A stretch of 11,097 bases of DNA from Acidobacteriota bacterium (lineage in GTDB: Bacteria > Acidobacteriota > Terriglobia > Terriglobales > Acidobacteriaceae): positions 1 through 11,097 of the forward strand of contig JAJXUS010000026.1 in the NCBI GenBank assembly GCA_021782675.1, given 5' to 3'. The position numbers were made by a program, and so were the translations under genes. Positions 5,632 to 10,541 of the stretch are shown one piece after another. The notes under the pieces are model-generated. The model searched no databases, was not told where the DNA came from, and worked only from the letters and a program-made list of their open reading frames with translations. Numbering within the stretch: position 1 is the stretch's first letter; each line of letters starts with the position of its first letter.

Positions 5632-6159
5632 ATGACAGACGATTTGCGGTATCCAACAGGAAAATTCGAGCGGGCAGCAACACTCACTGCGGAACAGCGT
5701 ACAGGGGCGATTGACGCGATTGCGGCGCTGCCCAAAGCGATGCGGGCAGCGGTGGCTGGTTTGACAGAGCAACAACTGGATACGCCGTATCGCGAGGGTG
5801 GATGGACGGTGCGGCAGACGGTGCACCACGTGGCCGACAGCCATATGCAGGCGGCGGGTCGGGTCCGGATGGCTTTGACGGAGGAGTGGCCGAAGATCTG
5901 TCCGTACAGCGAAGCCGCATGGGCGGAGCTGGCGGACGCGCGGACGCTGCCTGCGGAGGTTTCGCTGCAACTGCTGGAGGCGGTGCATACCCGCTGGGCG
6001 GCACTGCTGCGCAGCCTGGATGAGGCGCAGTGGAAGCGGGGCTACGACCATCCACAGAGCGGACGCCAGACGATGGAGCAGGTGGCTGCGCTGTATGCCT
6101 GGCATGGGCGACACCACACGGCGCACATTACCGGGCTGCGCCAGCGCAAGGGATGGTAG
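5632..6159 (+). CDS. DinB-fold metal-dependent protein, YfiT/BstA-like
   Basis: 175-residue four-helix DinB/YfiT-type protein. It begins with the family-typical LRYPTGKF and has GGWTVRQTVHHVADSHM at 56-72 and YAWHGRHHTAHI at 155-166. The probable metal-binding histidines are H66 with H161 and H165 (H-x3-H), matching the His triad of B. subtilis YfiT. YfiT (BstA) is a bacillithiol S-transferase, so a thiol-S-transferase or related hydrolase role is the best guess; the substrate here is unknown. The ATG at 5632 has only a G-run just before it and no good ribosome-binding site, but similarity to the family starts immediately. Its stop overlaps the start of the nuclease-like gene (ATGGTAG), which suggests the two are co-translated. 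Family confidence is high, reaction confidence low. Confidence 0.88.
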   Translation: MTDDLRYPTGKFERAATLTAEQRTGAIDAIAALPKAMRAAVAGLTEQQLDTPYREGGWTVRQTVHHVADSHMQAAGRVRMALTEEWPKICPYSEAAWAELADARTLPAEVSLQLLEAVHTRWAALLRSLDEAQWKRGYDHPQSGRQTMEQVAALYAWHGRHHTAHITGLRQRKGW

Positions 6160-7712
6160 AGGGGCCGCAGCCCGAAGCGCTGGCGGCGCAGATTCTGGAG
6201 TTTCTGGAGGCGCAGCCGTCCCTGGTGCTGGTGGAGGGCGGTCGCATCCTGTTCGATCTGCGGCTGGCGCGCGTGACGGTGACTGCGGAGCATGGCCGCT
6301 GCGTGCTGCATGTGTGGTCGGACGAGCAGGACCTGATCCGCAACGTGGTGGGTGTGACGGCGCGCAAGTATGGACTGCGGCTGCATGTGCTGCGGATGGG
6401 GCAGACGAAGCCGCAGACGCTGGAACTGCATCCGCAGCAGCGCAAGCTGCCGTCGCAGCGGGACACGGCGCGGACACGCTACCTGCCGGTGGTGGAACGC
6501 GCGTGCCGGGCGGCGTTTCCTGACTGGCAGATGGAGGGTCTGCGCACGGCGATGGACCTGGAGCGCAGCTTTGGGCCGGCGTATGCGCGGGGTTTGCTGG
6601 TTCGCGGGAACACGGCGCAGGCGGTGATTGCGATCAACGCGGAGGAGTCGCAGGCGCTGGTCGATGGCGTGCTGACGCTGGGGGTGCTGTGGCTGCACCA
6701 CTGCCGGGAGCATGCCGATGGACGCCGGCACGTCGCAGGGCTGAAGGTGATGGTGCCGAAGGGCCGGGCGACGGTGACGGCCGAGCGCCTGGCGTGGATG
6801 GATACGCGGGCCGCCACGTGGGAGCTGTATGAGCTGGAGGAAGCCAGCGAGCAGCTCTATCTACGAGACCATACCAGCCAGGGAAATCTGGAGTCACGGC
6901 TGTATCATGCGCCGGATACGACGGCAGCGCGGGAGCGTTTTGGCCCGGCGATTGCACGGGTGCGGACGTTGTTTCCGGCGAATGCGGCTGCTGGTGTCGA
7001 GGTGGTATTCCGCAGTGCGACCGAGGTGGCGCTGCTGTGGCATGGGCTGGAGTTTGCGCGTGTTGAGACGATGGTGCAGGAGAATTTCCGGCATGCCGAG
7101 CGGATTGTGTTTGGGTCGGGCGCGAGTGCAACCGAGCTGAGCGCGGAGACGGAAGCGAAGATTCGCGGACTGCTGCAGGGGCTGGTCGAGCGGCGGCGGC
7201 CGGATGGCAACAAGCGCGATGCGCTGTACCGGCAGCAGCCGGAGCGATGGCTGGAGTCGCGCCTGCGGCAGGCGCCTGAGGCGATTGATGCAGGGCTGAT
7301 GCCTGAGCCGATCTATGCGCAGGTGCCCGCATTTACGGCGGCGGACCGGGCGGTGCTGGATCTGCTGGCGATCCGTCGCAACGGGCGGCTGGTGGTGATC
7401 GAGATCAAGGCGGATGAGGATCTGCATCTGGCGATGCAGGCGCTGGATTATTGGATCCGCGTGCGGCGGCATCAGGAGAAGTCCGCAGGAACGGGAAAGA
7501 GCGAGCTGGAGCGGCTGGGATATTTTCCGGGGAAAGTAATTGCGGCTGAGCCGCCGCTGCTGTTGCTGGTGGCGCCGGCGCTGCGTATTCATCCTGCGAA
7601 CGAAGTGGTGCTACGGTATGTGTCGCCGCAGGTGGAGTGGACGCTGGTGGCGCTGGATGAGCGCTGGCGGGAGACGGTGCGGGTGGTGTTCCGGAAGCGG
7701 CGGACGCCGTAG
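6153..7712 (+). CDS. Unknown protein with PD-(D/E)XK nuclease-like C-terminal domain
   Basis: 519 residues; I do not recognise a named family for the full length. Residues 364-440 look like a NucS/RecB-type PD-(D/E)XK core: a helix with WLESRL, then D403 in VLDLLAI, E417 and K419 in VVIEIKA, and Q429 and Y433 in QALDYW (the QxxxY pattern of RecB-like nucleases). Residues 144-176 align without gaps at an offset of 257 (10 of 33 identical) but carry R146, A160, N162, G172 and L176 at those five positions. A second stretch, 199-230, matches 472-503 at offset 273 (P, R, E, W, L, L, E identical). The gene thus seems to hold a degenerate and an intact copy of one domain. Residues 281-345 (VVFRSATEVALLWHGLEFAR and following) separate them. 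No signal peptide or membrane segment is seen. The ATG at 6153 overlaps the DinB-fold gene by 7 bases; the frame is open to 6030, but the upstream part has no coding character. A DNA or RNA nuclease role is inference. Confidence 0.85.
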   Translation: MVEGPQPEALAAQILEFLEAQPSLVLVEGGRILFDLRLARVTVTAEHGRCVLHVWSDEQDLIRNVVGVTARKYGLRLHVLRMGQTKPQTLELHPQQRKLPSQRDTARTRYLPVVERACRAAFPDWQMEGLRTAMDLERSFGPAYARGLLVRGNTAQAVIAINAEESQALVDGVLTLGVLWLHHCREHADGRRHVAGLKVMVPKGRATVTAERLAWMDTRAATWELYELEEASEQLYLRDHTSQGNLESRLYHAPDTTAARERFGPAIARVRTLFPANAAAGVEVVFRSATEVALLWHGLEFARVETMVQENFRHAERIVFGSGASATELSAETEAKIRGLLQGLVERRRPDGNKRDALYRQQPERWLESRLRQAPEAIDAGLMPEPIYAQVPAFTAADRAVLDLLAIRRNGRLVVIEIKADEDLHLAMQALDYWIRVRRHQEKSAGTGKSELERLGYFPGKVIAAEPPLLLLVAPALRIHPANEVVLRYVSPQVEWTLVALDERWRETVRVVFRKRRTP

Positions 7713-10140: not shown

Positions 10141-10541
10141 GAAAGCAAGAAGCAGATCCCCTGCGGGGATGACAGCAAGAAAAGCAAAGGCAGAAGCAGA
10201 TCCCCTGCGGGGATGACAGAAAGAAAAGCAAGGGCAGAAGCAGATCCCCTTGCGGGGATGACAGCAAGAAAGGCAAGGGCAAGAAGCAGATCCCTTGAGG
10301 GGATGAAAGAAAGAAAGGCAAGGGCAGAAGCAGATCCCCTGCGGGGATGACAGCAAGAAAAGCAAGGGCAGAAGCAGATCCCCTGCGGGGATGACAGAAA
10401 GAAAAGCAAGGGCAGAAGCAGATCCCCTGCGGGGATGACAGCAAGAAAGGCAAGGGCAGAGGCAGATCCCCTGCGGGGATGACAGCTAGAAGAGCAAGGG
10501 CAGAAGCAGATCCCCTGCGGGGATGACAGCAAGAAAGGCAA
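10141..10541. repeat. Tandem array of nine 44-bp hairpin repeats
   Basis: Cores begin at 10153, 10197, 10241, 10287, 10331, 10375, 10419, 10463 and 10507, all 44 bases apart except one 46-base step; a partial linker from 10141 precedes the first. Seven cores carry the same ATCCCCTGCGGGGAT hairpin as the array at 2101-2667. The third has an extra T in the loop, and the fourth reads ATCCCTTGAGGGGAT, in which pairing is kept. Linkers are purine-rich and lack T on the plus strand, except for one T in the eighth unit. Orientation is the same as in the first array. It lies between the convergent ATPase gene (stop at 10114) and the short-chain dehydrogenase gene (stop at 10571). No gene is seen in 10115-10570. 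Not a CRISPR: linkers are near identical and there are no cas genes. Confidence 0.96.

Follow-up and report, generated by a model that had tools for sequence, protein, structure and literature searches.

A gene found in nearly all sampled Acidobacteriaceae genomes encodes a dead and a live PD-(D/E)XK domain in one chain, possibly a half-silenced relative of EndoMS

The DNA considered here, the window, is the whole stretch of 11,097 nucleotides that makes up positions 1 to 11,097 of contig JAJXUS010000026.1 in the Acidobacteriota assembly GCA_021782675.1 (family Acidobacteriaceae). It carries, overlapping the end of a DinB_2-family gene, a gene for a protein of 519 residues in which four domains can be distinguished (Table 1): a domain A1, a nuclease-like domain devoid of catalytic residues, a domain A2 and an apparently functional nuclease. 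The reading frame, the length and the residues cited in an earlier sequence-only reading of the window were all exact. For this protein no family reached its Pfam cut-off; the weak matches, all of them local and confined to the nuclease core, were to TIGR01784 (1.7e-4), the NucS model NF003270 (0.03), PDDEXK_2 (0.27) and PDC-S11 of PADLOC (4.1e-7). Relatives are numerous: of 8000 candidates that the protein search scored, 4313 are relatives at E <= 0.001; those taken from each protein search were its best 120 rows. The AlphaFold model of the chain has a pLDDT (predicted local distance difference test) of 91.6. Each of the four domains is covered to at least 0.74 in 32 of the 33 locus rows (23 distinct genes), the exception, L128, missing most of A1. 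In one genus (g7; G130, G275 and G292) the match is split near residues 350-371 within a single long frame of 630-682 residues in all three genomes, which looks like an insertion in the linker that joins A2 to the live nuclease.

Table 1. Features of the nuclease gene and of its upstream neighbour (window coordinates)
Feature	Position	Strand	Basis
DinB_2-family gene upstream, stop codon overlapping the nuclease start (ATGGTAG at 6153-6159)	5632..6159	+	
Whole nuclease gene, 519 residues: A1, dead nuclease-like domain, A2, live nuclease	6153..7712	+	
Domain A1, residues 5-96: one helix and seven strands	6165..6440	+	predicted model; EndoMS N-terminal domain overlaid within the alignment of residues 3-232
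Dead PD-(D/E)XK-like domain, residues 102-230	6456..6842	+	predicted model, structural alignment, alignment rows
R146, facing catalytic D403	6588..6590	+	R in 264/273 rows
Domain A2, residues 256-347: helix, four strands, helix; G298-L-E-F-A302-R motif	6918..7193	+	predicted model, alignment
Live PD-(D/E)XK nuclease domain, residues 357-516	7221..7700	+	model, alignment, structure comparison
Catalytic D403	7359..7361	+	273/273 rows
Catalytic E417 and K419 (ExK)	7401..7409	+	273/273 rows
Q429 and Y433 (QxxxY spacing)	7437..7451	+	273/273 rows

Conservation was judged from an alignment of 273 rows, consisting of 240 proteins, 13 locus proteins of a smaller, 16-row alignment and 20 context loci; ten genes stand in it twice (L021-L030 being identical with L112-L121) and P0121 is the L022 gene, so that 262 rows are left when these eleven second copies are removed. 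The five residues of the presumed active site, D403, E417, K419, Q429 and Y433, are invariant in the full alignment and likewise in all 262 rows of the reduced one, and E364, Q390, W434, W505 and, in A2, G298 are equally constant in the 273 rows. Thus the C-terminal nuclease core is intact, as the sequence-only reading had proposed, with no free variation at D403, E417 or K419. The domain displays the D...ExK arrangement on an alpha-beta core that defines the PD-(D/E)XK superfamily and, as a RecB-like nuclease with D, E and K and a following tyrosine, resembles that of EndoMS/NucS (EndoMS residues as given in PMC7343888).

The N-terminal nuclease-like domain is predicted to share the core fold of the superfamily but lacks the catalytic D...ExK. 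The order of helices and strands over residues 102-229 of the AlphaFold model is the same as in the C-terminal nuclease, and the N-terminal half aligns structurally to PD-(D/E)XK proteins. The model gives residues 105-235 no different fold, and a PD-(D/E)XK-like fold thus appears to be present twice in the chain, just as had been claimed. The residues named earlier as facing D403, E417, K419, Q429 and Y433, namely R146, A160, N162, G172 and L176, do face them at offset 257, and the proposed loss of the catalytic residues from this copy holds throughout the family: D at 146, E at 160 and K at 162 occur in none of the 273 rows, position 160 being A in 146 rows, G in 123, V in 3 and a gap in 1. 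Three other features of this domain are well conserved, R146 (264 rows), W180 (268) and R212 (263). In the smaller alignment the R146 column holds G, Q or W in 3 of 16 rows; a single gene, entered as both L029 and L120, has E in this column of the larger alignment and W in the smaller one, neither entry having ExK. As an arginine is conserved in place of the catalytic aspartate, its sequence suggests that the dead copy may serve to grip DNA. In Can1, charge reversal of two arginines of the nuclease-like domain (R206E/R249E) is described as yielding an inactive enzyme (PMC6981274).

What is repeated is probably more than the nuclease that the sequence-only reading had considered: to judge from the model, a beta-rich domain followed by a nuclease, as in EndoMS/NucS. 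EndoMS is a homodimer in which the two N-terminal domains grip a base pair that is mismatched or damaged, while each of the two nucleases cuts one strand; enzymes of this type make double-strand breaks at mismatches. EndoMS/NucS (PDB entries 2vld, 5gke and 5gkj) was the top Foldseek match of the whole model and again of the C-terminal half when this was folded by itself, EndoMS was the best structural match of the C-terminal nuclease domain, and VIA aligned EndoMS to residues 3-232 with the same domain order, at a root mean square deviation (rmsd) of 12.4-13.0 A. Whereas EndoMS/NucS is a homodimer with two live nucleases, here each chain has two units, and in the rows examined one of the two is dead. 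For EndoMS, the base-flipping residues are listed as Y41, N76 and W77 in Tko numbering (PMC7343888). Within A1, residue 63 (window 6336-6344 being residues 62-64) is W in 67 distant rows and R in 35 Acidobacteriaceae-like rows; it could correspond to the tryptophan by which EndoMS stacks on a base. Among the matches listed from the literature, no tandem or single-chain EndoMS, nor this family, is described, which is no proof of absence.

What the sequence-only reading had offered as proof of a duplication was a pair of gap-free alignments between the halves. Its identities are exact, 10 of 33 between residues 144-176 and 401-433 (offset 257) and 7 of 32, W223 included, between residues 199-230 and 472-503 (offset 273). 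As evidence of duplication, the first block is at the level of chance, since shuffling the N-terminal half gives a gap-free 33-residue match with at least 10 identities in 262 of 400 trials; the real halves also give an 11-identity match at an unrelated offset. Scored on family profiles, the first block attains -15.7, a value equalled or surpassed by 7,070 of 50,388 placements, and the second 3.6 (136 of 50,840); the identities of the second are not evidence either. Both registers agree, nevertheless, with the strands predicted later, so that the alignment could be correct even though the identities are no proof of it. On the predicted model the structural claim appears to be right, for reasons that the sequence-only reading did not have, and the two units may have a common origin. 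Short single-unit proteins were considered as possible ancestors and rejected: the C-terminal-half search behind this question listed at least 120 proteins of 236-454 residues among its matches, and the ten examined on long contigs begin at scattered internal points, as would be expected of misplaced starts or fragments.

With the window's own genome counted in, the gene is present in 115 of 120 Acidobacteriaceae genomes, representing 62 of 63 genera; phylum-wide, 57 of 199 genomes have it. Within the family it occupies one place per genome, save for four genomes in which the match falls into two adjacent pieces. No relative was found in phage or plasmid records, and none of the 35 pattern matches in viral contigs was confirmed as one. 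The neighbourhood was surveyed at 80 named Acidobacteriaceae loci, exclusive of the window's own copy (L111), and its counts are lower bounds because many contigs end early: a DinB_2-type gene occurs in at least 71 loci, in at least 52 of them as the immediate upstream neighbour on the same strand and no more than 100 bases away, a TldE/PmbA relative in at least 61 and a Dus relative in at least 27. Together with the seven-base overlap in the window, this proximity of the DinB_2 gene suggests translational coupling. A seeming fusion of the two genes (P0039, 725 residues) was rejected in favour of a frameshift, which is likelier because its DinB end reads in the frame of the nuclease (compare the window frame 6030-7712). 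An operon partner conserved across the phylum was likewise rejected: at 20 distant loci neighbour clusters are common to five loci at most, and over 30 loci (these 20 and 10 from Acidobacteriaceae) no other cluster occurs in more than six. The genes adjoining the nuclease in the window are metabolic or translational, and the gene looks like a vertically inherited housekeeping one.

Computation shows the pair of folds, one intact and one dead site, a resemblance of either half to EndoMS, and the gene's presence in nearly every genome of the family. The explanation that we favour, with about even confidence, is that of a single-chain, half-dead nuclease made of two EndoMS/NucS-type units arranged as a pseudo-dimer and cutting one strand at distorted duplex DNA. 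Unit 1 would comprise the beta-rich A1 and the PD-(D/E)XK domain without catalytic residues, and unit 2 would comprise A2 and the intact PD-(D/E)XK domain, the two folding together as one pseudo-dimer. A1 and A2 would recognise distorted duplex DNA, the dead domain would grip one strand via the conserved R146, R212 and W180, and the live domain would cut the other; the presence of one cutter and one dead copy suggests that one strand is nicked, in a metal-dependent manner, instead of both being broken. The outcome that we favour is nicking where a base is damaged or mispaired, the nick being usable by excision or ligation, and the role would then be one in housekeeping DNA repair. All of 40 family genomes have MutS1, 39 of them above the cut-off, so that the protein is no MutS replacement. 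The most specific form of the proposal, in which this core gene of Acidobacteria encodes a single-chain EndoMS with one nuclease turned to gripping DNA, a strand-choosing nickase that acts at damaged or mispaired DNA beside MutS, is put forward tentatively and as a whole must be regarded as doubtful.

Several results weigh against this explanation. Comparison of the halves by hhalign detected no relation, with an E of 0.093 as against 0.14 for the reversed control of the same pair and 0.013 for that of another pair, and a more diverse set gave an E of 0.4 in another register. The EndoMS alignment over the N-terminal half has an rmsd of 12-13 A, and for the dead domain Z reaches 9.4 at best, only slightly more than unrelated models attain according to a note of the tool itself. 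Strands are fewer in A2 than in A1, and any correspondence of A2 to the N-terminal half-closed beta-barrel of EndoMS appears solely within Foldseek alignments of 229-261 columns; since in the C-terminal half VIA extends over no more than the nuclease, the assignment of A2 as an EndoMS-type domain comes from Foldseek alone. The NucS family model NF003270 gives 13.4 bits against a cut-off of 216; Pfam NucS_C (24 bits) has no match in the window protein and matches 2 of 16 members (best E 0.011). The C-terminal sliding-clamp motif of actinobacterial NucS, reported as [E/K][L/Y][T/R]LF (PMC8228993), is absent from the last 25 residues in all 273 rows. As MutS1 is there already, nothing requires a role at mismatches. 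Judged on the defining features that were tested, the protein falls outside NucS, yet its mode of action may well be that of a half-silenced member. Among 297 genomes of the phylum none has a match to the full NucS model above the cut-off and 33 have a weaker one; NucS_C matches occur in 6 of 40 family genomes, and these do not include the genome of the window.

The same data can be read as the joining of two PD-(D/E)XK domains of separate origin, in which case the halves would be alike at the superfamily level only and no unit would have been duplicated. The undetectable sequence relation between the halves and the unequal strand numbers of A1 and A2 fit this possibility, as do the differing best single-domain matches, which are EndoMS for the C-terminal domain and PaqCI and XisH for the N-terminal one; the PaqCI nuclease domain belongs to a restriction enzyme and XisH (2inb, 2okf) is an element-excision factor, with no known link to the nuclease gene. 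A search of PDB sequences with the N-terminal-half profile returned only TREM1 (0.18-0.19), which was judged a chance match. Yet the sequence signal would also fade with great age, EndoMS is the top Foldseek match for the full model and, separately, for the C-terminal half, and the VIA alignment of EndoMS with residues 3-232 keeps the order of domains, so that we consider separate origins unlikely.

In layout there is a named precedent, contrary to the earlier statement that no named family is built in this way: Can1 (TTHB155), a component of type III CRISPR that nicks supercoiled DNA, is described as having in one chain a domain, a dead nuclease-like domain, a second domain and a nuclease (PMC6981274), the same order as here, with one dead and one live nuclease domain per chain; the EndoMS dimer is closer in fold. 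The A domains might accordingly be imagined to bind a signal and to unite the dead and live nucleases on DNA or RNA, as in a ligand-switched nuclease of the Can1/Can2/Card1 kind. Can1 has two CARF domains of the Rossmann type, whereas A1 and A2 are beta-rich in the predicted model and do not alternate strand and helix. Can2 and Card1 are homodimers with CARF domains, and their fold score is below that of EndoMS; Can1 does not appear among the VIA matches listed and is not thereby excluded. No Cas protein was found among the 8 neighbouring window proteins scanned, relatives not having been searched for CRISPR. With metabolic or translational genes adjoining and nearly every family genome carrying the gene, a ligand switch seems quite improbable. 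An anti-phage defence nuclease of the PDC-S11 or Shedu kind is the least probable of all, very unlikely in our estimate: in the window protein the PADLOC match is confined to a stretch of 40 to 78 residues about the active site, and a gene present almost throughout the family, in many genomes behind a DinB_2 gene, and without relatives in phage or plasmid records is unlike a patchy defence gene. Shedu SduA, itself a defence gene, has another N-terminal architecture than this protein.

Elsewhere in the window there are two tandem arrays, at 2098-2666 and 10148-10541, with a 56-bp unit repeated 10.1 times and a 44-bp unit repeated 8.9 times, respectively. They have a common core with the palindrome CCCCTGCGGGG, and of exactly 30 copies of the 20-base array core in the window's genome 17 lie inside the window. 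Within 2-2088, a frame that by eye looks EgtB-like is overlapped at its end by the next gene, of the Methyltransf_33 (EgtD-type) family, at 1057-2088; the two suggest a putative ergothioneine gene pair.

If the half-silenced pseudo-dimer is the right explanation, an unnamed and near-universal gene of the Acidobacteriaceae, abundant soil bacteria, would gain a testable job in DNA repair. The EndoMS architecture would be extended to a phylum in which the NucS model finds no match above its cut-off in the genomes searched. A dimeric double-strand cutter would have become a single-chain nickase by the silencing of one half, and the protein would represent a natural counterpart of Can1.
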